Shown piece by piece: positions 1,963-59,766 of a stretch of DNA of 64,000 nucleotides. Location of the stretch: assembly GCA_028823415.1 (NCBI GenBank), contig JAPKBL010000001.1, positions 62,001 to 126,000 on the forward strand, in the 5' to 3' direction. A program made the translations under genes and the position numbers. How positions within the stretch are numbered: the first letter of the stretch is position 1; every line of letters starts with the position of its first letter. The DNA comes from Mariniblastus sp. GTDB lineage: Bacteria > Planctomycetota > Planctomycetia > Pirellulales > Pirellulaceae. Under the pieces are notes generated by a model. The model searched no databases, was not told the origin of the DNA, and was given only the letters and a program-made list of their open reading frames with translations.

Positions 1963-3456
1963 TCATTCAATTCCATTGGCTTTCAAGTGGTCTTGAAACC
2001 ATTGATTAACAGCCCCCTTTTTCGTCGCCGCGTGGTACTTAGCATTTTGCCGAGGTAGTTCTAAACGGAAACGAAAGATTAACTCTGCCTGCTCCGGATC
2101 ACCCGCTATATTCTCCCATTCTTCGGGATCAAATTGGTGATCGTAAAGCTCCTCCGCCCCATTCTCATATCTGATATACCGAAATCTCTCGGTGCGAAGC
2201 GAATGATTCTTGCGGGCGTAAGTTGACAACGCCGAAAATCTCCACTCCATCGATGGATCTTTCATCAAGGGAACCAGACTTCGCCCCTCGTTAGAGGCTT
2301 TCGCAGGAAGGCCGCACATTTCAGTAAGGGTTGGATACAAGTCAATTAACTCGACAGGCTTAGACGATTTCCTGCCGGCAACTTTATTGCGCAGTTGAGA
2401 ATCGCCCGGTGGCAAAATCATGAAAGGAACCCGTGTCGATTCCTCCCATAAACTGTGTTTGCTAACACGTCCTTTTTCGCCCAAATGATAACCATGATCA
2501 GAAAACAAAATCACCAAAGTATTCTTAGCATACGCGCTTTGCTCCAGCGATTTCAACACCCGTCCAACTTGATGATCTACGAAATAGTTACATGCCAAAT
2601 ACGCCTGCACACACTTCTTAAATTGCTCATTGCCATTGGCCTGCAAAAATTCGAGCGAGGGATATTTAGGGAGCTCATGAATCTTCACCCCGATCAAAGG
2701 AATGTCTTCCAAGTCATCCTCGATGACCGCAGGTAAAACGATTTTGTCCAATGGAAAAGGAGCAAACCATTTCTTCGGAACATACCAAGGAACGTGTGGC
2801 CGGTTAAAGCCAACCGCTAAGAAAAATGGGCGCTCGTGCGTTTGTTCCAAAACTTCACTCGCCCAATCCGCCGATTGGTAGTCTGGCATTTTCTCATCTT
2901 GATCGGGGAAAGCTCCCCAGTCAGTCTGAGTTCCCGTAAAAGGCACATCTGGCAGGAAATAATTGAACCGGCGCCCCTTGGCTGGCTTTGGGCCAACCCC
3001 ATCAAACTTCCCTCCATAATGATCGAATGCTGTTTCATGCCGATAGCCATGCGTGATTTTACCGACTGCAAACGTTTCGTATCCGTTGCGAGAAAAATAT
3101 TCAGGCAACATTTGACCTTTGAAAAATTTTTCATCAGCCTCCATCCGTTTGCCGCTTGGCTGTTGATAGACGCCGGTCGTGTGTGGATAAAATCCGGAAA
3201 GGATAGAAGCGCGAGACGGACCGCAGATTGGCCCCTGACAATGGGCGTTAGTAAATAACACGCCAGCCGCCGCCAAGCGATCAATGTTAGGCGTCAATGA
3301 CTGCGGATGCCCGCCTAAGCAACCGACCCAGTCATTCAAATCGTCAACCGCGATCAGCAGCACATTGGGACACGCGTCATCGGCTCGCACTTTCAAAGGT
3401 GCGCCTCCACCGAAAAACAACAAACCGCAACAGAAAACCAGTGTAATTCGAACCAT
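1963..3456 (-). CDS. secreted sulfatase, iduronate-2-sulfatase-like
   Basis: 497 residues starting with a hydrophobic signal peptide (VFCCGLLFFGGG) that ends near Ala25. The mature protein opens with NVLLIAVDDLNDW, supplying metal-binding aspartates. The sulfatase signature CGPSR is present with Cys78 as the residue to be converted to formylglycine. Further typical blocks are GFNRPHVPW, FSDHGYHLGE and the C-terminal LYD region. The order and length fit the iduronate-2-sulfatase-like S1 group common in planctomycetes, where these enzymes desulfate algal polysaccharides. It follows the last of three CRTAC1-type genes by 37 nt on the same strand, so it is probably the distal gene of that operon. 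It ends with TGA, which shows that TGA works as a stop in this genome. Confidence 0.93.
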   Translation of the reverse strand: MVRITLVFCCGLLFFGGGAPLKVRADDACPNVLLIAVDDLNDWVGCLGGHPQSLTPNIDRLAAAGVLFTNAHCQGPICGPSRASILSGFYPHTTGVYQQPSGKRMEADEKFFKGQMLPEYFSRNGYETFAVGKITHGYRHETAFDHYGGKFDGVGPKPAKGRRFNYFLPDVPFTGTQTDWGAFPDQDEKMPDYQSADWASEVLEQTHERPFFLAVGFNRPHVPWYVPKKWFAPFPLDKIVLPAVIEDDLEDIPLIGVKIHELPKYPSLEFLQANGNEQFKKCVQAYLACNYFVDHQVGRVLKSLEQSAYAKNTLVILFSDHGYHLGEKGRVSKHSLWEESTRVPFMILPPGDSQLRNKVAGRKSSKPVELIDLYPTLTEMCGLPAKASNEGRSLVPLMKDPSMEWRFSALSTYARKNHSLRTERFRYIRYENGAEELYDHQFDPEEWENIAGDPEQAELIFRFRLELPRQNAKYHAATKKGAVNQWFQDHLKANGIE

Positions 3457-3493: not shown

Positions 3494-6124
3494 TTAATTC
3501 GCTTCCGGAGCGACCTCTGCAATCACGCATATTTTGGATTCATCGGGGGAGAGTAGCGTTGCATTGTTACCGCTTGGCCAACGAATTTCCAGCTTCGCAA
3601 TCGAATCTCCCACCGGAATGCCAATCGATTGAATCGCTGAGTTTTGGCTCGAAAATCCCTCACCCGCTTGATTTTGAATCAAAATCTTTTTTCCCGACTC
3701 ATACACCACCAAAACTTGAGCACCAATACCATCACGATTACTCAAATCCGGTGTCGCGACAGAAGACGTATTCCCCCCTGCCAGGCGGAATCGAAACGAG
3801 CGATTGCCAGGGCGAACTGACGACATCTTATTTCGATACAACTTGAATCGGGGAGCATTGAGCGACATCAACGCAATGTCTTGCCAGCCGTCCTTGTCAA
3901 AATCAAGCGTTGCGAACGAGCGACCATCCGCAATATCATCAGCTCCACTAAGCAGGGTCACATCCGTGAAGTTATCGCCGAGCTGCAAGAACAACCGATT
4001 TCGTTCACGACCGCTAAGTGAATTACTCGTGAATTTCAGGCCGTCGTCGGAGAGGTCGCCGGACGCTTTGGGCGCCGCACGGACGATCACGTCATTCACA
4101 TAACGCTGGTGCTGCCATAGATCGTTCTCTTTAAAACCGTCTCCTTGGGTTGTATCTTCGCGCACGACCGTGCGCCAAAGACACGATCACAAGTCAACCT
4201 GTGTATCAATCTCCCGAGGCGCCGTATAAAACCCAGTCGGTACATAGAGATCGAGTCGCCCGTCATTATCAAAATCGACCCACTGCCCTCCATAAGACCA
4301 GCCGACTTGGTTAACGTGAAATTGATCAACTGCCGCTCCAGCTCGCTGCTCAAATTTCCCATTAGAATTAACGAACAGAAAACATCCAGCAGCCGCAACT
4401 TGAATCCGCGGGTCTACCGAGTCGAGTTTTTTTACGATCCGACGTCCTGCCTTTGAGAACATATTCGAAACATAAAGGTCCAAGTCGCCATCAGCATCAA
4501 AGTCACCGAACGAAGCTCCCATCCCAAAACCAACGCCCTTATTGACCATCGCGGAATCAGTAATTTCGACAAAAACCGGTTGGTTTGCACCGCGAGGAGT
4601 ATCATTACGAAGCAACGCGTCAGGGGCAAAGTCATTGCATACATACAAATCATCATCGCCATCGTTGTCTATGTCCGACCAGACAGGTTGATAGGATCGG
4701 CGCCATTGCGATAAGACGTCATCGAATGGCACGCGTTCCAAACGCCCGCCACCCCGGTTCATCAAAAGGACGTTCGCCGTCCCTGCGGTTCCAACCCACT
4801 TTTCGCTGGCATCCCGTTTCTCGAGATAAATTTTCCGCTCTTTCTCGCTTAAAAAGTGGTGCTCAAAAGCAGTATCTTTTTTACTCAACGGCGGATAACT
4901 ACTCATGTAAACATCGACCAAGCCATCTCGATTCACATCCGCCGCCGCTATCCCACTGGTAAAATATTGCAAATCTTCACTGAGATCCGAGTGAGTGGCG
5001 GTAACATCCTTGAAAACGCCTCCATCATTTCGAAGGTATCTCGCGGGTTCCAACGAATGCCCCATTAATAGATCTTTGTCGCCGTCATTATCAAGATCAA
5101 CAAACAAAACGCAATTGACCAGAAAATCAACCTTCAATCCCACCGACTCGGCCACATCAACAAATGTCCCATCTCCGAGATTTTTCAACATCTGAGTCGG
5201 CCCCCATCGCGCCGTCAGGAAGATGTCGTCCCAGCCATCGTTATTAAAATCAACGACCGAGACTGATGGATAAACATGGTCGGACGTCATGGTCGTCCAT
5301 TTTGCATATTTGTTATCTGGCAATTCGTAAACGCCGGTCTGAGCGGTCTTGAGAATGATCTCATCAAGAAATGAACGCTGAGCATTTTCGAGTGCTACGG
5401 GGTCTTTGAGAACATCAGCCAAAACCTCCTGAAACAACGACTGCTGAGAACGTTCGATATAGAAATCTTCCTGATTCCATTTACGTAAAACCCATTGGCC
5501 CGCTTCCTTCTGGAACTCCAGCGACTGATGCGCTTTCAACCCGAATAGTAAATTCGGCTTCCCCGACGGCGAGTGCCCCCTCGCTTCGACTTTTGTCTTT
5601 AAAATGAATATGCTCTTTTCTGAATCGGAAAACTTACCCGACACAGCACCAAACTTCATCGTCTCCCATTGAGCGTCCAACTCCATCGCAGCTTGCCACG
5701 GATCGAGGGGCTCTTCTGCGACTGATTCTGCAATAGGCCAGTGCCCGACTTCAATAAAATCTGCGTGACTCGAATCTTGATGAAACACCTGTTCAGAACT
5801 AACCGATGCCAAGCCGGTAACATTCAGACATGTCAATAAATCCGGTGACAGGGGAAGCTGCGGATTCTGAGAACGCTGCTCATACCAATCGGCCAGTCGA
5901 CTTAGCCGCGGCGTCAGATCAAGAATCAGATCTTCGCTATCGATTAAGTCACTAATCAATGCAACCTCTGCATGATTGGTGTCCTTGGCTTGCGGATCTA
6001 CCTGAATCGCTTTCTCTCGAACACACCCTTGATTCATCGCGAGAGTAATCAAGGCGATCGCCATCACAAACACAAAATTCGTGATGGCATCATGTTCAAT
6101 TGGAGCCACTGACTGTTTATTCAT
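3494..6124 (-). CDS. CRTAC1-type FG-GAP/ASPIC-UnbV protein, candidate selenoprotein (copy C), UGA at residue 646
   Basis: This is one continuous frame of 876 residues if the TGA at 4189-4187 is decoded; otherwise it breaks into a 645-residue part and a 223-codon part in the same frame. The N-terminus has a hydrophobic export segment ending at NQGC, possibly a lipoprotein site. The body contains FG-GAP repeats with calcium-type loops (DFNNDGWDD, DLDNDGDKD, DVNRDGLVD, DIDNDGDDD, DFDADGDLD, DFDNDGRLD). The TGA follows TQVDL and is followed by SCLWRTVVRED, another FG-GAP loop (DFDKDGWQD) and an ASPIC/UnbV domain (RDGIGA, AGEGF, RWPSG). Termination at the TGA would delete the last repeat and the whole ASPIC domain. 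Its start overlaps the stop of copy B by 8 nt. Third gene of the array, before the sulfatase. Confidence 0.85.
4155..4189 (-). promoter_or_regulatory. SECIS-like hairpin after UGA in copy C
   Basis: Eleven nucleotides after the TGA (4189-4187) the RNA forms a perfect 6-bp stem, GCGCAC with GUGCGC (4175-4160), closed by a GGUC tetraloop. A G-G mismatch and a further weak helix of U-A and C-G pairs can extend it towards the UGA. A G-containing apical loop about 18 nt after the UGA matches the known Escherichia coli fdhF SECIS design (loop GGUC). The fold was drawn by hand and not computed. Confidence 0.7.
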
Positions 6125-8726
6125 CGCCCACTTCCCGGATCGTCAAAATTTCAGAAATATTCGGATTCATGATCTCCGTTTTCAACCCCGAAGGCCAGCG
6201 AACCTCCACCCGTTCTATCGAATCTCCCTTCGGAACACCAATCATTTTGACGTCAGAATTTTGACTCGCAAACCCCTCCCCCGCCTGCCGCTGAACAAGC
6301 AATTTGTTTCCCGAAGCAAACGTAATTAATGCCGTCGCTCCGATTCCATCTCGATTGCTTAGCTTGACTGAGGGCGCCCCGCCCCTCTGGCCTCCAATGA
6401 ATCGGAATCGAAAAGATGAATTATCAGGATAAATCGACTGCAGTTCGTTTCGATAGAGTTTAAATCGAGGCGAGTTCAGCGACATCATTGCAATATCTTG
6501 CCAACCATCTTGATCAAAATCCAAGAGAGCAAAGGAACGGCCATCGGCGATATCATCCACGCCACTGATCAACGTCACATCAGAAAAATTGTCTTTGTGC
6601 CGCAAAAACATTCTGTTTCTTTCACGGCCACTTAACGAATTACTGGTGAACCCCCATTTTTGATTGGATCGGGATTCAGCCCCCTTTGCCGAATCAACCA
6701 AAACCCGGTTTTGGTATTTTTGATTATCCCACTGGGAGTCATCTCGAAATGAATCAGCTTGAGAAGGGTCATCGCGCACGACCGAGCGCCAAAGACAAGA
6801 TCAGGTATCGACTTGGGTGTCGATTTCCTCTGGCGCCGTGTAAAAACCGGTCGGGACATAAAGATCCAATTGACTGTTGTTGTCGAAATCTCCCCATTGC
6901 CCCCCGTAGGACCAACCTACCTGATTAACATGATATTGATCGTCCTCGGCACCTGCTCTCTGAGTAAACTTCCCACCATCATTGACAAACAAAAAACAAC
7001 CCGCTGCCGCTACTTCAATTCGCTGATCAACCGATTTCATTTTCTGGATAATTCGCCGCCCCGCCTTGGAGAACATATTGGAAACATAAAGATCAAGGTC
7101 GCCGTCGCGATCAAAATCGCCGTACGAGGCCCCCATACCAAACCCGAATCCTTTATAGGTTAGAACCTCCGAGGTCACGTCGACAAATACCGGTTGCGCA
7201 GCTCCCTGCGGCGTATCGTTTCGCAGCATTGAATCCGGCGCGAAATCATTACACACATACAAATCGTCATCGCCATCGTCGTCGATGTCGGCCCAAACGG
7301 CTTGGAATGATCGATGCCATTGGGCTAATTCTTCGTCATACGGAACCCGCTCGAGACGGCCTCCGCCACGATTCATCAATAAGACATTAGCCGAACCAGC
7401 CAAATTCAACCAACGATTACTATCCGCTCTTTTTTCAAGAAAACGTGCCCGTTCCTCTTCGTTGAGAAACGTCTGCTCGAAGGATGCACTTTCCTTGTTG
7501 AGCGGCGGATAGTTACTGAGATAAATATCAACGAGGCCATCTCGATTTACATCAGCTGCGGAAATTCCGCTTGTGAAAAATTGCCTTCCAATGTCGGACT
7601 TAACTTTTGTGACATCCTTGAAAATGCCGTCCAGATTTTCGAAATACTTAGCCGGTTCCATCGGGCGCCCCATGATTGCATCCTTGTCGCCATCGTTATC
7701 GAGATCGACAAACAATACGCAATTCACCAAAAACTCTTCGTGCAATCCAATTTCCTCGGCAACATCCGTGTACGTACCATCCCCCATATTCTTCAGCATT
7801 TGGGTTGGCCCCCATCGAGCCGTGAGGAAAAGATCCTCCAAACCGTCGTTGTTAAAATCAACCACAGAAACCGAGGGAAGAATATTGTCAGACGTAAGAT
7901 TCGTCCAAGGCACATACTCAGGAATCGGTAGAATAAATCCGCCCGTGCGGGAGGATTTCAGGATGATCTCGTCCTTGAAAGACCGCTGCGCATTACTTAG
8001 TGCTTTTTCATCGGGAAGCACTTCCCCAAGCACCTCGCGAAACAGCAGCTGTTGAGTTCGCTCAACAAAAAAATCCTCCTGAACCCAACGAATTAAATCC
8101 CAGGCCGTGCCAGATTTCTTGAACACGATGATTTGGTGAGCTTTCATCCCCAATGCTGATCCCGACTCAGTCCGGCCGCGACCTTCGACTTTTGTGTGTA
8201 ACGCAATCTCGTCATGGCGATCGTTAGTAAAATCTCCAGCGACCACTCCAAACTTTAACGTCTCCCAACCGACGTGCAGTCCATTCGCAGCTTCCCAGGG
8301 GTTACCGGGTTGACTTGTTTCCACCCCCATTGGCCATCGAATAACTTCCAAGAATCCCGGCTCGCTTGAGTCGGCCTGAAATAATTCAGCTGGGTTTCTA
8401 TCTGCAATTCCAATGAGTGATTCACATTGCTTCAAATCATCGGCAAGTTCGGTTTGCCGGCCGGCAGAATTCTCCTGAAACCATTTGGCAAGCCGTATGA
8501 GTCGCGGGGTGAGGTCGAGCAGCAGATCCTCACTTTGAATCAAATTATCAACCATTTGTTTTTTTTCGGTCAACTCCGCCTGCGCGCCGCCCTTCGGCAA
8601 GTCAACGACCAACGGCCGTTCCTTACAACCGAAAACAGAACAACAAAGAACCACCATCAATACGGCAACCCAATTTCCGCATCGAGCGTCCGATACAGAC
8701 GGACGTGGAGGGGACCATCGCAGCAT
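6117..8726 (-). CDS. CRTAC1-type FG-GAP/ASPIC-UnbV protein, candidate selenoprotein (copy B), UGA at residue 642
   Basis: A single frame of 869 residues when the TGA at 6803-6801 is decoded. A signal peptide ends in a good lipobox, SVFGC, so it is probably a lipoprotein. The FG-GAP loops repeat in the same order as in copy C (DFNNDGLED, DLDNDGDKD, DVNRDGLVD, DIDDDGDDD, DFDRDGDLD, DFDNNSQLD). The TGA lies in DTQVDT-U-SCLWRSVVRDD. After it come DFDQDGWQD and the ASPIC/UnbV block (RDGIGA, AGEGF, RWPSG). One nucleotide separates its start from the end of copy A, and its end overlaps copy C, so the three are almost certainly translated from one mRNA. FG-GAP repeats form extracellular beta-propellers; the exact role of this protein is unknown. 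Confidence 0.85.
6769..6803 (-). promoter_or_regulatory. SECIS-like hairpin after UGA in copy B
   Basis: Eleven nucleotides after the TGA (6803-6801), GCGC pairs with GCGC (6789-6774) around a U-U mismatch, a C-G pair and a GGUC apical loop. The geometry is the same as in copy C; the only difference in the upper hairpin is one base (A in copy C, U here). The codons forming the hairpin keep identical third positions between copies although surrounding synonymous sites have diverged. Confidence 0.66.
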
Positions 8727-8727
8727 A

Positions 8728-11328
8728 TCAGTTCAACTCCTCAATCAAATTAATCACTTGCCTATCAGGGGAATCGATAGTTGATGTTTTCCCTGATGGC
8801 CACTTAACAACTAGCGAAACGACTTTGTCTCCAGCTGGAATCCCGACCGAAAGAATTTCAGAGTTCTGGGAAGCAAACCCTTCCCCGCACTGTTTCTGAA
8901 CAACCATTGTTTTACCGGATCTAAATTTCACATACACCTTTGCACCAATTCCATCCCGATTGCTTTTTCCAGATTGGCCTTGTGCCGAATCCGCCGAACC
9001 TCGAAGCCGAAAACGCAGCGAGTGATTGTCCGGATACAATCCCTGCATTTGATTGCGATATAGCTTAAATCTTGGATTGTTTAACGACATGAGTGCGATG
9101 TCCTGCCAACCGTCTTGATCGAAATCCACAATCGCAAATGATCGACCGTCAGCGATATCATCAGCGCCGCTGACTAAAGTAACATCGACAAAATTGCCCG
9201 GGCTATTCAAAAACAACCGATTCCGCTCGTTACCACTCAATGAGTTGCTTTGGAAACTGAATTGCTGCATCCGACGCCCTCCGGGATCGCCCTCGGTGGG
9301 CATGAAAATCTGGTCCTCATATTTCTGATTCCCCCAGGCGGAGGCCGCTTGAAATTCTTCCTCTTGACTGGGATCTTCGCGCACGACCGAGCGCCAGAGA
9401 CAAGATCAGGTATCAACCTCAGTCGCGATCTCAGCGGGGGCTGTGTAGTACCCCGACGGAACATAAAGATCCAGCCTGCCGTCGTTGTTGAAATCCACAA
9501 ACTGACCACCAAACGACCAACCGACCTGATGCACTTTGAATTCACCTTCGTCGTCGCCTGCCCGCTGGGCATATTCCCCATTTTCATTCACGTAAAGAAA
9601 ACTACCACGTGCTGCCACTTCGATCCGCTCGTCTACTTTCCCTAATTTGGAGGCAATTCTCCGGCCAGCCTTGGAGAACATGTTGGAGACATAAAGATCA
9701 AGATCACCATCTTGGTCAAAATCACCAAACGAGGCTCCCATTCCAAAACCAATTCCCCGGTTGGTAATTACACGGTCGGTGACATTCACAAACACAGGCT
9801 GCGCGGCACCGACGGGCGTGTCATTTCTCAACAACGCATCCGGTGAAAAGTCATTACAAATGTAAAGATCATCGTCACCATCTTCATCAAAATCAGCCCA
9901 CGCCGACTGGAATGACCGCCGCCACTGAGAAAGGTCGTCATCGTAGGGCACCCGCTCGAGCCTTCCGTCGCCGCGATTCATTAACAAGACGTTTGCCGAA
10001 CCTGGAAGATCCAGCCAACGGTTCATCGTCTTTCGTTTTTCATCATAAATCTCTCGTTCCTCGCTCCCTAAGAAAACGTCTTGAAATCGCAGTGACGCTT
10101 TGTTCAAAGCTGGATAACTACTTAAGTAAACATCCAACAAGCCATCTCGATTAACATCCGTCGCAGAAATCCCGCAAACAAAAAACTGTTTCCCCAAGTC
10201 GGAGTGTGTCTTGGTCACATTTCTATAAACCCCCGACTCATTTAAGAAATACTTAGCCGGCTCCATTGGCCGACCCAAAATAGCATCCTTGTCGCCATCG
10301 TTGTCGACATCCATAAAGAGTGCACAGTTAACCATGTACTCTTCACGTAACCCAATTCTTTCAGCAACATCGACGTAGGTACCGTCGGGCTGTTTTTCCA
10401 ACATCTGTGTTGCGGCCCAGCGTGAGGTAAGGAATAAATCATCCAGCCCATCACTGTTATAATCGACAACGGAAACCGAAGGAAAAACATGATTGGAGGG
10501 CAGTTCCTCCCAGTCAGCCACCAAGGGAACCGGCAAAGTTATCTTCCCACCCTTGCGAGATGACTTCACTATTATTTCGTCTTTGTGGGAACGCCTGATT
10601 TCCTTCAGAGTCTCAGCATCGGCCACCACCTCAGACAGCACTTCACGAAAAAGTGGGCGGGCGGTTCGCTCTAAAACTAAATCCTCCTGTAACCACTCTG
10701 TCAGCTTCCAAATTCCATTCTCTTGCTCGAATTGAAAATCTTGATGCCCTTTGATTCCAAAAACGGCGCTGGGAGACTTTCCGCGGCCCTCAACTTTGCT
10801 GTGTATTAAAAATACATTTTCATTTTTAAAGCTTCCGGAGAGCACGCCGAACTTCATGGTCTCCCATTGAACACCAAAAACATCCATCGGCTTCCACGGA
10901 TAACCCACCTTCGGGGACGCCTCGCTTTCGATCGGCCACTCCGCTATCTCAAGAAAATCCGGGAAAGCGTCATCCCTTCTAAACAAATTTTCCGAGTCCG
11001 GCGCAGCCAACCCGCGAACAACTGCAAGATCGGCCCAACCGGGAAAATTCACTTCAGGATCGACCGCTCGTTGCTCGATCCACAACGCGATCATCTTAAG
11101 CTGCGGTGTTAAGTCTAGAATCAAATCCTCACTAGCGATTAATTCCGTGACGGTTGCCTCGATCGCCGACATCGCCTTGGAATTCTCGCCTGTGGTCTGG
11201 GAGCTTTTTTCACAAGAAACGCAGGTCAGGAGATACACAAACAGCAAGAAACAGAACGCCAACGACCTCAGAGCCGAGACGCATCGACCACGGGCAATTC
11301 CTTTAATAAAACTTAAGTCAGAACGCAT
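8728..11328 (-). CDS. CRTAC1-type FG-GAP/ASPIC-UnbV protein, candidate selenoprotein (copy A), UGA at residue 641
   Basis: First gene of the array, 866 residues when the TGA at 9408-9406 is decoded. I place the start at the ATG at 11328 rather than at the upstream codon at 11433, because AAGGA lies 6 nt before it, a basic/hydrophobic export signal follows directly (ending near LTCVSC), and the length before the TGA (640) then matches the other copies (641, 645). FG-GAP loops: DYNSDGLDD, DVDNDGDKD, DVNRDGLLD, DFDEDGDDD, DFDQDGDLD, DFNNDGRLD. The TGA lies in EVDT-U-SCLWRSVVRED, followed by DFDQDGWQD and the ASPIC/UnbV domain. The true end of this gene is also TGA, so a general reassignment of TGA to an amino acid is excluded. 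It is divergent from the lactonase gene. Confidence 0.85.
9374..9408 (-). promoter_or_regulatory. SECIS-like hairpin after UGA in copy A
   Basis: Same arrangement as in the other two copies: the TGA (9408-9406), an 11-nt spacer, then GCGC-UC-GGUC-GU-GCGC (9394-9379). A lower helix of U-A, U-A, C-G and U-A pairs with one bulged base can be drawn below a G-G mismatch. The sequence from the spacer end to the GUGCGCGA is nearly identical in all three copies. Confidence 0.66.
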
Positions 11329-11566
11329 TCGATTCCTTGATGTTACACATTGATCTACCTCAAGCAGCGTTTCTACATGCGCGTGGTCGGCTTTTTCAAA
11401 CCTTTTTTGACGAAATAGGAATTCAAACAACATTGGATGCCAGTACGGATTTCATTTGTAGGGTGACCAGCACGTGAAAAACACTATTTTAGCTTTAGTA
11501 CTGGTTTAGGGGAAGTTTTGAACCTATCGTGATGCATGTTTTAACCCTTGAAACGAGGTATTCAAA

Positions 11567-50100: not shown

Positions 50101-53100
50101 ATGAATACACTTTGCCTCCCAAAACCAGTCTCTCAATTATGTTTGATTTTCTCGGCACTGTTTTTATTTAACACTGCTTGTGGACAAGATCAAAAACCTG
50201 AGCTTCAAAATGGGGACCGCGTTGTCTTTCTCGGTTCGGAGTTCATCGAGCAACAAATCAAGTACAACTATTTGGAAACGGAACTCACCCTGCGGTGGCC
50301 CGATCGCCAAATTGATTTTATAAATTTAGGCTGGGCGGGTGATACCCCGTCAGCAATTGCCCGAGGGTATTTTGGAGGCGCAGCAGAAGGCTTCCGTCGC
50401 CTCCTTGAAGAACTCGACCGAATTAAACCGACTCAAATCATCGTCTGTTACGGCGCTAATTCGGAACCCGCACCTTTCCAGACTGAATTCAAGAACTTAT
50501 TCGATGAATTAAAAAAACGCTGTGCTAACATTACCGTTCTCTCACATCCGGCTGTCGAAGCCACCCGAGACGGTCGCATTGATCCCCAGCCAGCTAATCA
50601 GAAACGAGCAAAAATATCGGAGTATCTCTCAGATTTTGTCGACTCACTCCGCGACCCAAAAATCAGATTTGTCGACCTATTCTCTCTTTCCCGTGAATTG
50701 TTTCAATCCGGAAACGACAAGCAAAACTGGCTGACTCATGATTCCATTCGATTCACCGAAGCCGGATATCTAGAAATTAGCAATCGCCTCGCCGATGAGA
50801 TTTTCTCTGGGTCTCGGAACGGGGCATCCGCCGCGAACTTTGAAAAAACTCGCAAAGAAATATTCGCGAAAAACCAACTCTTTTTCCACCGCTACCGGCC
50901 TCAAAACGAAACTTACCTGCGCGGCTTTCGAAAGCACGAGCAAGGGCAAAACGCAAAGGAAATCAATCAGTTTGATGCGTTGATCGCCCAGGCGGTGGCA
51001 CGTATCCAGAGAGCGGCTCAAGGAAAAACACTCCCTCCTCCACCGCCGCTTCCTGACCCCATCAAGCTCACTTTTGAAGCATTTACGCCCGAGCAGGAAA
51101 GAGGTTCTTTCACCCTTGCAGACGGTCTCAGTGTCAATCTCTTCGCCGCCGAACCGATGGTTGCCAACCCCATCCATATGAACTTTGACAACTCCGGAAA
51201 ATTGTGGGTTGCGACCAGTCCGATCTACCCGCAGATTAAACCTGGAGCCATTCCCAACGATCAAATCGTGGTTTTGGAAGACACCAATGGAGACGGCAAA
51301 GCTGATCAAAAGACAATCTTCGCAGATGACTTGTTGATTCCCACGGCAGTCCTCCCAGATGAAATGGGGGGAGCCTATGTCGCCAATTCGACTGAGATCA
51401 TTCATCTCTCAGACACCAATGGGGATGGCAAAGCTGACCACAAACGCGTGGTGCTTTCAGGATTCGGCACTGAGGACACGCACCACATTGTTCACACATT
51501 TCGCTGGGGTCCCGATGCCGCCATTTACTTTAACCAGTCAATTTATATCCACTCACATCTAGAAACTCCCCACGGGGTCCAACGCCTACTCGGCTCGGGC
51601 ATCTGGAGATTCGACCCGCAAACGGTCACGGCAAGCGTTTCAATGCGGGGGCTAGTGAATCCATGGGGACACATTTTTGACGACTGGGGACAGGGGTTTG
51701 CGACCGACGGCGCCAGCGGTTGGGGAATCAACTACGCATTTCCCGGGATCGCCTACCAATCTGCCGTTGGATTTTCACAAACGCTACGCGGCATGAATCC
51801 CGGTCAACCCAAACATTGCGGATTAGAGATTATTACCGGCCCGCATTTTGAAGACAGTTGGCAAAACAACCTCGTGACAAACGACTTTCGTGGAAATCGA
51901 ATCAATCGGTTTACCGTCAATCCCGATGGCGCGGCATACACATCGAAACAACTGCCCGATCTGATGTCATCCGATCACCGCGCCTTTCGACCTGTCGATC
52001 TGAAAATGGCTCCGGATGGCTCGCTGTTCATCGCCGATTGGTACAACCCAATTATCAATCATGGTGAAATTGATTTCCGAGATTCTCGGCGGGATTATAA
52101 ACACGGCCGCATCTGGAGAGTTACCCAAAACGACCGTCAACTCGTTAGCTCACCCAATTTCGCAAAGGCAACCCCGCTGGAGCTGATCCAGTTCATGAAA
52201 CTTCCCGAACAATGGAATCGGTTCAAAGCCAGAGTCGAATTAAAAAACCGGATTTTAATTGCACACACCGCCCTTTTTGATGACGTTGCAGCGCCGATTG
52301 AGAATTTAATGAATTCCCCGAATCCCAAAGAGCAACTCGAAGCACTCTGGACTTTGGACGCTCTCAATCAGCTATCTAACCGCCAAATAAAATACGGGCT
52401 CGATGCGGCGGACTATCGCGTACGTGCCGCGACGCTGCGGATGATCTCAAATAAATCCACTCCCAATGCCCAATGCCAAGCTTGGGTAATAGCGATGCTC
52501 AGCGACTCACATCCACAAGTCCAACTCGAAGCGATTAATACATGGCGACGCAGTTGCGATCCGTCAACCGCAGAGGTCCTCTTCAAATTTTTCGAAACGG
52601 AGCAGGATCAATACACCAAATTCCTTTTGACTCAAGCGCTTAAAGACACCCAATCTCATTGGCTAGGCAAGCTCCAAAGCAATGCGATTGGAAATTCTCC
52701 AGCGTCTTTGATTGACGTTCTTTCCGTTGTTAATTCCGATCAAGCCGTTGGCCCGTTAATGCGAATGCTAAAGACACTACCAGGTCAGGAAAACGAGCAA
52801 AAAATCATCCAACTGATTGGCCAACGCGGCAACGCCAACCAATTAAAACAATTATTTGAGTTCGCTCTCGCAACACCGACTCTCACAAATCCCACCATCG
52901 TGGCTCTACTGGATGCTTCAAAAAAACGAAAGGTCCGCGTTCGTTTTGCACCAGAGGAACTTAAATCACTTTTCAAAAAACACCCCGCCACAATGAATCT
53001 TGCGGGAGCATGGAAAATCCAAGCGTTACAGGATGAACTCAAGTTGGTCGCGTTGGGCTCGAGTGAGACCCCCAACAAGTTGCGACTGCAGGCGATCAAG

Positions 53101-54297
53101 GGCCTCGCTGCCTTTGGTGACACTCAGACCTTAGAAGCGATTGCACTCGACCCCAATCAACCGAAGGAATTAATCGCCCCTACCATCAAATTACTTGCCG
53201 GCGTCAATACACAAATGGCGGCGAAGCTGACAACTCAATTTATGCGTCAGCTTTCTCCAAAGGAAATCAAACAACACTACAGTATCATCGAAGTTTTCAT
53301 CAATCGAAAAAATGGAGTCGCCGAACTTGTCAAAGAATTTCGTGACCTTGATCTAAACGCGGAATCCAAACAAGCCCTCGTTACGTTACTGAATAAATCG
53401 GGCCAGAGGGCTAAACCTTTATCCGATGCAATTGGAGCATTGCGCAACCGAAAAATTAAGATGAAATTTTCGGAAGCAGAATTAAATGCACTGATTAAAG
53501 ATGTCCAGCAAACCGGGAACGCTTCACGTGGCGAAACCGTTTACCGCCGAGATAACCTCAGCTGTATTAAGTGTCACGCGATCGGGGGAAGCGGCGGCAT
53601 TGTTGGGCCCGACCTAATTTCCCTAGGATCCAGCTCGCCGATGGACTATATCATCGAGTCGCTCGTCAACCCAAACGCGAAAATCAAGGAAGGCTATCAT
53701 ACGACAACCATTCTCACCGATGATGGTCGGCTTTTCTCTGGAAAGCTGATCAGCCAATCCGACAGCCAAGTCACACTCCGAGATGCGGAAAACAAAGAAC
53801 TTGTGTTCTCTGATGAAGAAATAGAAGAACAGAAAATCAGTAACCAATCGCTAATGCCCACCGATGCAGTCGCAACGCTTGATCGAGTTGATTTCCTGGA
53901 TCTCGTTTCTTTTCTTTCAGAACTTGGCAAAGAAGGCCCTTACCGAGTTTCGCCGGAATCTTGGGTACGACGCTGGGTCACTTCAGAAGACCAAACAATT
54001 TACAGCCGCGTCGATGGCTCGCTCCCGATGGCAGATGTGAAAGGAAATAACGTCGCTTTCGATTTCGAGGTAACTCAAGCCGGTGCGGTTGGCATTGCCG
54101 TCGAGAACGGGACGGGACTTCGAATTACCCTTGATGGCCAGAAGGATAACCTCCAAGCGGCCAAAATCATCAAAGATTTAAGACCGGGGAAACACAGCTT
54201 TCATTTCCAACTTAACGGTAAGAAAAATCGCGAATCGCTACGCGTCCGCCTTCTCGATCTGCCCAATTCCAAGGGAAAAACTCGCTTAATCAACTGA
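50101..54297 (+). CDS. PVC-type multidomain protein: SGNH-like, membrane-dehydrogenase-like propeller, HEAT repeats, CxxCH haem domain
   Basis: 1398 residues. Signal peptide (LIFSALFLFNTACGQ). Residues 35-240 are an SGNH/GDSL-like domain (GDRVVFLGSEFIEQQ, NLGWAGDTPS, IIVCYGANSE). Residues 340-680 form a PVC-type dehydrogenase-like beta-propeller (FAAEPMVANPIHMNFDNSGK, DTNGDGKADQKTIFADDL, DTNGDGKADHKRVVLSGFG, VDLKMAPDGSLFIADWYNP). Residues 700-1110 contain HEAT-like helical repeats. Cys1155, Cys1158 and His1159 in CIKCH are a c-type haem site, followed by GPDLISLGS, VNPNAKIKEGY and a domain with SDEEIEEQKIS. A beta-rich domain closes the protein. Large surface proteins of this plan are common in planctomycetes; the electron donor is unknown. 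Confidence 0.91.
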   Translation: MNTLCLPKPVSQLCLIFSALFLFNTACGQDQKPELQNGDRVVFLGSEFIEQQIKYNYLETELTLRWPDRQIDFINLGWAGDTPSAIARGYFGGAAEGFRRLLEELDRIKPTQIIVCYGANSEPAPFQTEFKNLFDELKKRCANITVLSHPAVEATRDGRIDPQPANQKRAKISEYLSDFVDSLRDPKIRFVDLFSLSRELFQSGNDKQNWLTHDSIRFTEAGYLEISNRLADEIFSGSRNGASAANFEKTRKEIFAKNQLFFHRYRPQNETYLRGFRKHEQGQNAKEINQFDALIAQAVARIQRAAQGKTLPPPPPLPDPIKLTFEAFTPEQERGSFTLADGLSVNLFAAEPMVANPIHMNFDNSGKLWVATSPIYPQIKPGAIPNDQIVVLEDTNGDGKADQKTIFADDLLIPTAVLPDEMGGAYVANSTEIIHLSDTNGDGKADHKRVVLSGFGTEDTHHIVHTFRWGPDAAIYFNQSIYIHSHLETPHGVQRLLGSGIWRFDPQTVTASVSMRGLVNPWGHIFDDWGQGFATDGASGWGINYAFPGIAYQSAVGFSQTLRGMNPGQPKHCGLEIITGPHFEDSWQNNLVTNDFRGNRINRFTVNPDGAAYTSKQLPDLMSSDHRAFRPVDLKMAPDGSLFIADWYNPIINHGEIDFRDSRRDYKHGRIWRVTQNDRQLVSSPNFAKATPLELIQFMKLPEQWNRFKARVELKNRILIAHTALFDDVAAPIENLMNSPNPKEQLEALWTLDALNQLSNRQIKYGLDAADYRVRAATLRMISNKSTPNAQCQAWVIAMLSDSHPQVQLEAINTWRRSCDPSTAEVLFKFFETEQDQYTKFLLTQALKDTQSHWLGKLQSNAIGNSPASLIDVLSVVNSDQAVGPLMRMLKTLPGQENEQKIIQLIGQRGNANQLKQLFEFALATPTLTNPTIVALLDASKKRKVRVRFAPEELKSLFKKHPATMNLAGAWKIQALQDELKLVALGSSETPNKLRLQAIKGLAAFGDTQTLEAIALDPNQPKELIAPTIKLLAGVNTQMAAKLTTQFMRQLSPKEIKQHYSIIEVFINRKNGVAELVKEFRDLDLNAESKQALVTLLNKSGQRAKPLSDAIGALRNRKIKMKFSEAELNALIKDVQQTGNASRGETVYRRDNLSCIKCHAIGGSGGIVGPDLISLGSSSPMDYIIESLVNPNAKIKEGYHTTTILTDDGRLFSGKLISQSDSQVTLRDAENKELVFSDEEIEEQKISNQSLMPTDAVATLDRVDFLDLVSFLSELGKEGPYRVSPESWVRRWVTSEDQTIYSRVDGSLPMADVKGNNVAFDFEVTQAGAVGIAVENGTGLRITLDGQKDNLQAAKIIKDLRPGKHSFHFQLNGKKNRESLRVRLLDLPNSKGKTRLIN

Positions 54298-56049: not shown

Positions 56050-59000
56050 ATGGGTTCTGATCCAAGCGATTCCGGATCAAATGACGATCGCGAATTAGAT
56101 CAAGAGAATGCCGAGCAGGTTCCGCCTGGGACAGACGGAGCCAATGACGGTGAAGCCACCGTCAATCTTAATAGAACCACCGCCGACGACTTCCCCACCG
56201 TTAATGACACGCGGACAGTCGGCCACCAAGATGTCACTGTGAATCTATCGGCGACGTCGTCAGAGGCGCTGTTGCATGCAGGCACTATTCCAGAGCCTAG
56301 CTCGCCCTCAAGTGACAGTTCGCCTTCGAGTCACGAACTGTCCCCCACCTCGACAGTTGACCAAACGGTTGAATCGAGTGCCAACTCGGTCAATAAAACA
56401 ACGGAGAATAAGACTGATTTTGATGTTGATCGAACTGCGCCTTCGCTTCGCGAGAACGCAACGGAACAAAATGACGCAACGCTCCCCAGCATTCCCATTG
56501 CAAACCGCAGCGGCACGGGATTCGAACAGGCAGCGGTTGATCCTCATCGACAAGAAAACAATCGTCACCCCCAAGACATGGAGACAATCGGGCGCTACCA
56601 AATCATACGCCTGCTTGGCGAAGGTACATTTGGAAAAGTGTTTGAGGCGCGTGATCCACAACTCGATAGAATTGTGGCTATCAAAGTCGCTAAGGCGATT
56701 TCTGGACGCACCCAATTCCAGCGGTTCCTACGAGAAGCCCGTGCCGCAGCTAAACTTCGACACCCTAACATCATCCCCGTCTATGAATACGGACAAATCG
56801 ATGGAGAAAATGTAATCGTTTACGAGTTCGTCCAAGGTGCGACACTCAAATCTTACATCAGCGATTCAAAAACCCGTTCCCTCGAAAAGACGCTCAATAT
56901 TATTCGAGAAATTGCCATTGGGCTCGATTACGCCCATCATCAGGGCATTATCCATCGAGACATTAAACCCGATAACGTGCTACTCGATCCCGAAGGCCAT
57001 CCGCATATCGCAGATTTCGGATGTGCACGCTCAATCGAAGACGACACCAATTTGACGATTGATGGTTCGATTCTCGGAACCCCAATGTACATGAGCCCGG
57101 AACAAGCATCCGGCAAAGCGAATGAGGCAGATCAGCGAACCGATATCTGGAGCCTCGGAATCATGCTTTTCGAAATGATTTCTGGCGAAAAACCGTTCAA
57201 AGGACAACTCTCTGATTTACTATTTGCTATCCGCAATCAAGACGCACCACCGCTACGTAAACTTAATCGTGGAATCTCAGTCGATATCGAAACGATCTGC
57301 CAGAAATGTTTAACTCGCGACCTTGACCAACGATTTCAAACGGCTCGTCAGGTTGCCGATGAATTGACTCGGTATCTCGATGGCCAACCTATCGAGTCCC
57401 GCCGCATTGGGCCCCTCGCACGCGGATGGATGTGGGCCAAAAGAAATCAAACAATTGCGAGTCTAGCGACAGCAACCGCCGTCGCCCTCTTGACCGGAAC
57501 GATTGTCTCGACTTCTTTTGCGATTTCAGCCTACCGCGAGAAGCAGGCGAGGGCCACGACACAACTGAGATCCATAACCACGGCGAAAGCGACTCAGTTG
57601 CCGGAAATTTTCAAGAACCTCGCTCCGTTCAAACCCTCCATTTGGGAAAAGCTAAACAGTCAACTAGACAATTCCATCGAGAACACGACGCCCAAAATGC
57701 GATTGACCATGGCGGTTCTCGCACTCGAAGACGACCTAGATCGAAAAAACGAATTGGCAGTCGAGCTCATTGAATTTCTGTTAACCGCGGACGCCGACGA
57801 TTTCTACGTCTGCCGAAATTTATTACTTGCACAAAAAAATGTAATCACCCCGACGCTTTGGCGTGAATTAAATGACCCGGCCGGTGAAAATTCAAGAGAC
57901 CGGCGTTTTCGAGCCGGTGCAGCTTTAGCGAGCTATGCCCCGAAGGCTTCCGAGTGGGACAACCTTGCTCCGGATATTACCGGCATCCTAACTTCGGTCG
58001 ATGCGATCGAAACGAGTCGATGGATCGAAGCTTTTGTGCCCATCAAAGGGATACTCAAAAAACCATTTCACACGGCCTTCCATCGGCGAGACAACAGCAA
58101 TCAGGACCTCTCAAGACGGGCTGCCGCCATTATTGCGAACTTGTATAGTGAGGACATCGACTACCTTGTTGACTTGGTCGCCAATGCCCGTCCGGAGCAA
58201 ATCCCTTTCTTAAAAGCAGCACTGGCTGAAAACGCCGAGATTGCCATCCAAAAAATAAATTCAGCGATTTCAGCAGTTACCCGCAACGAAAAATCTGACA
58301 CAAACCTAGCAACTCAAACAGCGAACCTGGCAACGGTAGCCATTCAACTCAAGTCTTACTCCCATTGGGATCTGCTGACCGACCGACCCGATCCCTCGGC
58401 CGCCCATGCACTCATTGAGCGTCTCTCTCAAAGCTCGACTTCTTCGGAACACCTCTTGCCGATCATTACCAACTGGAAGTCATCCACGCCCGACGTGCTT
58501 GCCGGAGTCTTAATGGCGCTCAGCCTGTATCAACCTAATCAGATATTTGACTCTGAGAAAGAGAAACTTAAACAACCGCTATCAGAAATTTTCAATCAAC
58601 ACACCAACGCCAGAGTGCACTCATGTGCCCGCAATCTGCTGTTGAATTGGGGCTATCGCGATCAACTCAAGGCTTGGGAATATAGTTTACGCAGTGAATC
58701 TCCCAGACGAGGCATGAACTGGCATGTCGATTTGATCGGCAACACGTTTGCGATTTTTGATTCGGTATCCAATTTTCAAATGGGATTAAACGGTGATTCA
58801 AACTATGAGCCTCCCTTTGATAAAGATTTAGTTTCCGATGAACCGTTGCATCAAAAGGCAATCCCTCGTCGGTTTGGAATCTGCATTTTTGAAGTCACTC
58901 ATCAGCAATTTTCTGAATTTGAAGAGCACCTCTGCGGATTTTATGAAAGAAAGCTAATTGAAACGGAGACCGCGATTGCCAATCTAGACAGAACAGAACC

Positions 59001-59766
59001 TCCCCCCCCGCAGGGTTCCGATGTCGAAGAAAAACTCACCAAGCTCAAAAAAACGAAGAAAAGGTACGACGTGCGACTGAAAGGAATCAAGCGTCAAAGA
59101 ACGAAACGGGCCAGCGCCGCCCCGCGCTCTCCGGTAACCGACGTCGACTGGTTCAAATGTTTAGCCTATTGCCGCTGGCTCAACGAGCTAAACAACCTCG
59201 ATCAAACGTCATTGCCAGATATTGATAGTCTCGCGATGATGAATGCTAAATTCCCCAAGATCGAACTGTTCTCTAACCAAGATGTCTTGAATAGTAATGG
59301 ATACCGTCTGCCGACGGCAAGCGAATGGGAATTTGCTTGCGGGGGCGATATTGAAACACTCTACCCATTTGGAAAGCACACTTCGCTTGCGAAGCAATAC
59401 GCTTGGTACGCCAATAATTCTCAAACCAGCTCTCATCCGGTTGGAGAACTACTTCCCGGGCCGACGGGAATGTTCGACATGCTCGGCAATGTCAATGAAT
59501 GGTGCCTCGATTGGTACCGCGCTGATTTGCCTGATTTGCCAAGCGACCAAGAATCTTCGATCTACGTCGACCATGGGACCGACCATCGATCGCTAACCTG
59601 TGAGTACCGCGGCGGAGCATTTGACTCAACCATTTCTGAGATTCGAATCAGTAAGCGATTCCTCCGAAATCCAGTCTTGGCCCAAGGGACTCTCGGATTG
59701 AGGCTGGCCAGAACTTACCCGCCGCTCCCACCAGGCGACAAAAAGGCAACAGAATCCAGTAAGTAA
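56050..59766 (+). CDS. Ser/Thr protein kinase with a transmembrane segment and an FGE-like C-terminal domain
   Basis: 1238 residues. A 170-residue Thr, Ser, Asp and Asn rich N-terminus is followed by a kinase domain starting at residue about 180: LLGEGTFGKVFEARD (glycine loop), IVAIKVAK (ATP Lys), HRDIKPDNVLLD near 303, ADFGCARS (DFG) and MYMSPEQASG. A hydrophobic segment SLATATAVALLTGTIVSTSFA near residue 475 is a membrane anchor. Residues 560-880 are helical repeats. The last 330 residues resemble the formylglycine-generating enzyme/sulfatase-modifying fold (NGYRLPTASEWEFACGGD, GMFDMLGNVNEWCLDWY, YRGGAFDS, LGLRLAR), but the catalytic Cys pair of true FGE is missing. Similar kinase-FGE fusions are planctomycete-typical. 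Confidence 0.9.
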   Translation: MGSDPSDSGSNDDRELDQENAEQVPPGTDGANDGEATVNLNRTTADDFPTVNDTRTVGHQDVTVNLSATSSEALLHAGTIPEPSSPSSDSSPSSHELSPTSTVDQTVESSANSVNKTTENKTDFDVDRTAPSLRENATEQNDATLPSIPIANRSGTGFEQAAVDPHRQENNRHPQDMETIGRYQIIRLLGEGTFGKVFEARDPQLDRIVAIKVAKAISGRTQFQRFLREARAAAKLRHPNIIPVYEYGQIDGENVIVYEFVQGATLKSYISDSKTRSLEKTLNIIREIAIGLDYAHHQGIIHRDIKPDNVLLDPEGHPHIADFGCARSIEDDTNLTIDGSILGTPMYMSPEQASGKANEADQRTDIWSLGIMLFEMISGEKPFKGQLSDLLFAIRNQDAPPLRKLNRGISVDIETICQKCLTRDLDQRFQTARQVADELTRYLDGQPIESRRIGPLARGWMWAKRNQTIASLATATAVALLTGTIVSTSFAISAYREKQARATTQLRSITTAKATQLPEIFKNLAPFKPSIWEKLNSQLDNSIENTTPKMRLTMAVLALEDDLDRKNELAVELIEFLLTADADDFYVCRNLLLAQKNVITPTLWRELNDPAGENSRDRRFRAGAALASYAPKASEWDNLAPDITGILTSVDAIETSRWIEAFVPIKGILKKPFHTAFHRRDNSNQDLSRRAAAIIANLYSEDIDYLVDLVANARPEQIPFLKAALAENAEIAIQKINSAISAVTRNEKSDTNLATQTANLATVAIQLKSYSHWDLLTDRPDPSAAHALIERLSQSSTSSEHLLPIITNWKSSTPDVLAGVLMALSLYQPNQIFDSEKEKLKQPLSEIFNQHTNARVHSCARNLLLNWGYRDQLKAWEYSLRSESPRRGMNWHVDLIGNTFAIFDSVSNFQMGLNGDSNYEPPFDKDLVSDEPLHQKAIPRRFGICIFEVTHQQFSEFEEHLCGFYERKLIETETAIANLDRTEPPPPQGSDVEEKLTKLKKTKKRYDVRLKGIKRQRTKRASAAPRSPVTDVDWFKCLAYCRWLNELNNLDQTSLPDIDSLAMMNAKFPKIELFSNQDVLNSNGYRLPTASEWEFACGGDIETLYPFGKHTSLAKQYAWYANNSQTSSHPVGELLPGPTGMFDMLGNVNEWCLDWYRADLPDLPSDQESSIYVDHGTDHRSLTCEYRGGAFDSTISEIRISKRFLRNPVLAQGTLGLRLARTYPPLPPGDKKATESSK

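Follow-up and report, generated by a model that had tools for sequence, protein, structure and literature searches.

Two described systems come closest to the genes considered here, which lie in a window of 64,000 nucleotides (the whole stretch of DNA that was analysed) from Mariniblastus sp. The first is the CRTAC1 or ASPIC/UnbV family (Pfam PF07593; 9etn), with which the window copies have FG-GAP repeats and an UnbV_ASPIC domain in common; they differ from CRTAC1 in carrying an in-frame UGA in a loop between propeller blades, and their long relatives differ in a fused CxxC domain as well. The second is the group of bacterial selenoproteins with an in-frame UGA and a SECIS behind it, for example FdhF of Escherichia coli, which like the array has machinery genes and a hairpin at a similar distance behind the UGA, the GGUC loop starting at +22 in fdhF (a sequence present in 5368 of 5426 E. 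coli genomes) and at +21 in copy C, the last gene of the array. Unlike FdhF, the array proteins are not molybdopterin enzymes and have no thioredoxin fold at the selenocysteine (Sec), and whereas the SECIS stem of E. coli fdhF has a bulge, the stem of the array hairpin is without it.

Table 1 of PMC13188914 (2026) gives 119 prokaryotic selenoprotein families, many of its entries being redox proteins with UxxC or CxxU motifs, and contains no FG-GAP, CRTAC1, UnbV, ASPIC or VCBS entry; the largest whole bacterial selenoproteomes named in that paper have 57 and 63 genes. Sec genes are described in planctomycetes P1 and P2, including a Rhodopirellula (PMC4807772), and the main text of that paper names fdhA and fmdB with no mention of FG-GAP or ASPIC. 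A word search of the accessible text of PMC12013277 and PMC5029168 found no FG-GAP, CRTAC, UnbV or VCBS. Full-text searches, which leave room for a mention in supplements, preprints or closed papers, gave no paper joining selenocysteine with FG-GAP and none joining selenoprotein with UnbV, or selenocysteine with integrin alpha and planctomycetes; papers containing both selenoprotein and CRTAC1 are, among the matches listed, medical or animal work by title.

The minus strand of the window from 11328 to 3494 holds three CRTAC1-type genes in the same direction, each interrupted by a single TGA that falls in one and the same alignment column. Copy A (8728..11328) would encode 866 residues with its TGA (9406..9408) read as Sec641, although an alternative longer start at 11433 is also open in the ORF list; copy B (6117..8726, TGA at 6801..6803) would encode 869 residues with Sec642, and copy C (3494..6124, TGA at 4187..4189) 876 residues with Sec646. 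One nucleotide separates the stop of copy A from the start of copy B, and the start of copy C overlaps the end of copy B by 8 nt. The initial annotation had given these TGA coordinates and residue numbers, and both hold, the latter for starts at 11328, 8726 and 6124. It had also described a frame that continues after the TGA, a continuous alignment and a family-defining ASPIC/UnbV domain behind the codon; the frame indeed runs on for 225 (A), 227 (B) and 230 (C) codons, the three copies align without gaps through the TGA, and Pfam finds FG-GAP repeats and UnbV_ASPIC in all three, with UnbV_ASPIC behind the TGA each time (47.5, 43.8 and 44.7 bits against a cut-off of 23.4). In NCBIfam no model covers the window copies: copy A gives one match below cut-off (21.4 against 35 bits), and copies B and C give none.

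These three genes, with a TGA in every one, are also adjacent in two genomes of the same genus (G100 and G119) and in the named Planctomycetota MAG of locus L021. A sulfatase gene (1963..3456, minus strand) lies 37 nt behind copy C and possibly forms one operon with the array; a sulfatase stands behind the array in L021 too, and some kb away in L022, but L023 and L024 have other genes, and no common partner emerges among the neighbours in the window and in L021 to L024. As a pointer to the substrate the neighbouring sulfatase is a hint only. Elsewhere in the window, the plus strand has two very long ORFs, of 1398 (50101-54297) and 1238 codons (56050-59766).

A search with copy B covered 149 family genomes, with a cut-off of E≤1e-30 and at most six matches scored per genome. 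Matches occur in 40 of the 149 genomes, and every one of the 121 listed (the sum over the genome table) has exactly one TGA. In the Mariniblastus sp. genome itself, seven of the eight UnbV domains are encoded in open frames no longer than 224-230 codons, and on the same contigs seven sites match, with TGA, the pattern of the motif around the Sec codon, D-x-U-[ST]-x-x-W-R-x-V. Throughout the phylum this pattern with TGA was found in 89 of 392 genomes, some of the matches being chance ones to judge from the matched letters; a reversed control pattern gave five matches in the phylum search, the rows being read by eye.

Orthologous copies differ behind the TGA by dN of 0.054-0.095 and dS of 0.77-2.32, which indicates purifying selection there; before it dN is 0.026-0.14, and dS ranges from 1.09 up to saturation. 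The initial annotation had argued that three independent nonsense mutations at one codon are implausible, an unsuitable null since copies A, B and C are paralogues. The stronger argument is the survival of the TGA in orthologues that have diverged to saturation, or nearly so, at synonymous sites. That the genes are decaying, with the TGA a nonsense mutation or a sequencing error, might be entertained for one MAG-like assembly of 265 contigs, but with the same codon in all 121 matches listed and strong purifying selection behind it, this explanation is practically untenable.

Could the UGA be read as some other amino acid, such as Trp, through an altered code or general read-through? The open frame by itself is compatible with this. 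TGA, however, acts as an ordinary stop elsewhere, as the initial annotation had stated: 10 of 25 long window ORFs, chosen by hand, end in TGA, and in these the next in-frame stop follows 10-39 codons on. The terminal stop of copy A is itself a TGA, as it is in its three orthologues. Since a tRNA-Sec with anticodon TCA is present and selA tracks the TGA copies, as described below, a recoded or leaky UGA is extremely unlikely.

A search for the sel genes, proposed in the initial annotation, was borne out for selB (368.9 bits), selD (262.9 bits) and a tRNA-Sec (67.4 bits, anticodon TCA, i.e. UCA), all present in the genome, but not for selA, which two models failed to find beyond weak partial matches in this fragmented assembly (92.7% complete, 265 contigs). 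The selD match is fused behind another domain at the very end of a contig; it forms the rear of a 740-residue ORF (L009, 96-2318 on contig C226) whose front, named by eye, is NADH-dehydrogenase-like. selA is present in four of five other genomes of the genus (G067, G100, G134 and G144, not G119) and in the host of L021, the nearest named relative. The flank of selA in G100 had no match in the Mariniblastus sp. genome, an empty answer that itself shows nothing. In G100 selA lies near what by eye is a putative 23S rRNA gene, and rRNA gene regions often break assemblies.

Within the family, selA (E≤1e-40) was found in 36 of 40 genomes with TGA copies versus 59 of 109 without, as compared by hand; the four TGA-copy genomes in which it was not found (the Mariniblastus sp. 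genome itself, listed as G000, together with G119, G063 and G065) are assemblies 82-93% complete, and its lack there counts against Sec. Named loci gave access to 21 genomes, in which selA is present in 12 of 12 TGA hosts, neither of the two Ala hosts, one of four Cys hosts and two of three hosts of other UnbV proteins; the fifth Cys site is in genome G034, which has both selA and TGA copies.

At the Sec column the initial annotation had suggested looking for Cys or UGA in homologues, and the fetched loci show TGA at 84 sites (including some genes seen in two loci), Cys at five and Ala at two. These come from 118 sites with W at +4, of which 27 spurious rows outside the motif were dropped by eye; five of the dropped rows have a Cys codon (L045, L081 at 6613, L032 at 6685, L092 and L047). 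The TGA rows are from Planctomycetota, Verrucomicrobiota and Myxococcota, the Cys sites from Gammaproteobacteria (L038, L040, L041), Planctomycetota (L050) and L110 (minus strand), and the Ala sites, both with codon GCG, from Acidobacteria (L032 at 7012 and L081 at 6940). That two homologues have Ala rather than Cys counts against Sec. Homologues that really end at the TGA codon, named in the initial annotation as evidence against Sec, were not found.

The 91 sites were used for a quick tree, in which 85 rows were kept after four that were too short (including one of the five Cys rows) were removed and two identical ones merged. Two changes suffice for the Sec, Cys and Ala labels. The two Ala rows are sister to a clade of 20 Sec rows, and a long branch carries the Cys clade, its place and that of the root being unsure. 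In two Cys homologues (L050 at 6601 and L110 at 2688, minus strand), whose genomes also have selA, the motif reads C-x-x-x-W-C, with a second Cys four residues past the first Ser/Thr of the motif. Loci L164-L168 (families f61 and f69) form a deep branch with the motif D-[YFW]-U-T-x-[FY]-W-R-Q-V and several copies per genome, and the CxxC domain is present in all five of these loci as read.

We also considered split genes, in which the TGA terminates one protein and a second, the ASPIC/UnbV protein, is translationally coupled to it and starts at a GTG eight codons on. A GTG-started ORF does follow the TGA in all three copies, and the array genes are themselves closely coupled. The codons between TGA and GTG, however, belong to the conserved motif U-S-x-x-W-R-x-V, the D, the U column and the W are invariant in 15 of 15 aligned members, and in the Cys and Ala homologues the frame is continuous through the Sec column; split genes would also leave the hairpin and the selA link without a place, and we judge them highly improbable. 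Split genes, an altered code and decay were all set aside on the evidence of the motif, stop usage, selA and selection.

Hairpins were examined with the SECIS model given in the legend to Fig. 2 of PMC13188914, applied to 80 different sites. Of these, 61 fit the model, with a hairpin that lies some 17 nt past the TGA; the corresponding figures are 15.4% for protein-preserving synonymous shuffles (40 rounds, highest 23.7%) and 54 of 636 for upstream windows of the same genes. In 60 of the 61 passing sites the loop begins between +20 and +24, and 23 of the 61 have one of the two most frequent loops, GGUC and GGUCG. None of the five Cys homologues passes; one of the two Ala homologues does (L081), and its SECIS-like hairpin is perhaps a relic of lost Sec. 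A weak test, the energy of a 33-nt window, gave a mean z of -1.01 over the 80 sites versus -0.13 to +0.10 in four flanking windows.

In the array, the SECIS-like hairpin of copy C (4160..4175, minus strand, +15 to +30 from the T of the TGA) is GCGCAC-GGUC-GUGCGC and passes the published model at -11.8 kcal/mol including outer pairs. That of copy A (9379..9394, minus strand, also +15 to +30) has a GCGC/GCGC stem and a GGUC loop, the stem being interrupted by a U-U mismatch, and that of copy B (6774..6789, minus strand) has the same mismatch; both have -5.2 kcal/mol as drawn and fail the strict model, which counts against the proposed decoding. Three of four other copies in this genome pass (L132, L133 and L134, though L133 does so only through another hairpin, at +41), and L131 falls short with -7.0. 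The script allows no bulge, and even fdhF of E. coli gets just -2.0 from it, as against -6.6 with the bulge, so that a miss is not proof that a hairpin is absent.

The internal UGA of copies A, B and C is thus, as far as sequence comparison can tell, almost certainly decoded as Sec. We propose that the array consists of translationally coupled selenoprotein genes with FG-GAP repeats and ASPIC/UnbV, in which SelB and tRNA-Sec would decode the internal UGA as selenocysteine with the help of a hairpin that lies within the coding sequence, some 12-27 nt behind it. This whole explanation, an array of CRTAC1-type selenoproteins with the UGA read by SelB and tRNA-Sec with a hairpin, is very probable; Sec insertion, to which the initial annotation had already pointed, is supported by conservation of the in-frame UGA, selection on the part behind it, the replacement of Sec by Cys in some homologues, the machinery, the hairpin signal in the family and the co-occurrence of selA. 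From a column of N-terminal Cys the products are probably exported and perhaps lipoproteins, a simple lipobox being matched in copy B only.

The structure of copy C, taken together with 14 relatives, was predicted with Sec entered as Cys (pLDDT 86, pTM 0.89). The predicted model has a propeller fold like that of CRTAC1, mouse CRTAC1 (9etn) ranking first both by fold (E 1.6e-23) and by profile (E 1.1e-17), although 9etn aligns in separate pieces and the Sec motif falls outside them. Sec is predicted to be the first residue of a helix (601-610), and D599, the Sec column and W605 are invariant among the 15 aligned members.

The 84 TGA sites were sorted by length: among members that are short and complete, the window copies included, none of 38 has a CxxC behind UnbV, whereas 31 of 34 long complete members have one, as do all nine that reach far enough among the 12 running off their locus. 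In the members scanned the fused domain is named AhpC-TSA/Redoxin (Pfam) or ResA/DsbE/TlpA (NCBIfam). The two Ala homologues keep the AhpC-TSA domain (E 1.7e-10 and 3.1e-13) and have lost the CxxC, which we read, from two related cases, as cooperation of selenol and dithiol. The three exceptions among the long members (L155, L156 and L159) keep Sec with a fused thioredoxin-like region without CxxC, the reverse of the usual pairing, and Sec without CxxC in three of 34 counts against a redox partnership.

Sec, at the start of a helix between predicted propeller blades, may thus be a redox-active selenol, with the thioredoxin-type CxxC domain fused behind ASPIC/UnbV in many relatives as its partner; we consider redox catalysis by Sec fairly likely. 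In the window copies, which lack this domain, Sec would have to be reduced by a separate protein. Alternatively, Sec could be inserted for a structural or metal-binding role in proteins that are not redox enzymes: the best fold match is mouse CRTAC1, to our knowledge no enzyme, two homologues have Ala at the column, and the short members have no fused domain. The CxxC domain of nearly all complete long members speaks against a structural or metal-binding Sec, as does its disappearance where Sec is gone, albeit in two related cases only, and we regard such a role as rather unlikely.

The initial annotation understated the scope, in that the three genes make up only a minor share of a widespread family with many copies. 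It is likely that this family is a superfamily missing from the catalogue, made up of selenol enzymes that are probably exported and built on a CRTAC1-type propeller, many with a fused thioredoxin-type domain; some Planctomycetota would have at least 20 paralogues per genome, and members occur in Verrucomicrobiota and Myxococcota as well. If so, it could be that no other single protein family makes as much use of Sec within one bacterial genome; one relative (G004) has 24 UGA genes, as against 57 and 63 genes for the whole of the largest bacterial selenoproteomes named in PMC13188914. The bacterial selenoproteome would gain a large family in a fold absent from Table 1 of that 2026 catalogue. 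Under the standard code these genes appear truncated at the UGA, a possible reason why they were missed. For the bacterial ASPIC/UnbV proteins it would also mean an active site open to testing, namely a selenol that many members combine with a CxxC partner in the same chain.

Copy number was gauged by running a looser motif pattern, with a control pattern, on nine genomes. Its matches numbered 25 in G004, 24 in G063 and 18 in G070, three genomes free of control matches, the G063 and G070 figures being pattern matches only; the six other genomes had 2 to 11 sites and up to four control matches. G004 is an assembly of 8.3 Mb in 60 contigs, 95% complete, and when its 25 sites were fetched 24 proved to be family members, all keeping the TGA; the remaining site (C42) is a chance match. 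Twenty-three of the members have at least 200 codons behind the TGA, with CxxC in all 23, and one has 188. Pairwise identity among the 24 paralogues has a median of 40% and reaches 60% at most. Twenty-three of them lie outside the 80-site set used above, and 15 of the 24 pass the SECIS model, where shuffles give 1.9 on average (200 rounds, highest 6); eight of the nine failing sites miss by 0.2-0.4 kcal/mol. In two of the paralogues (L238 and L239) an A-U pair of the stem is replaced by C-G, with a change from Ser to Ala in the protein.
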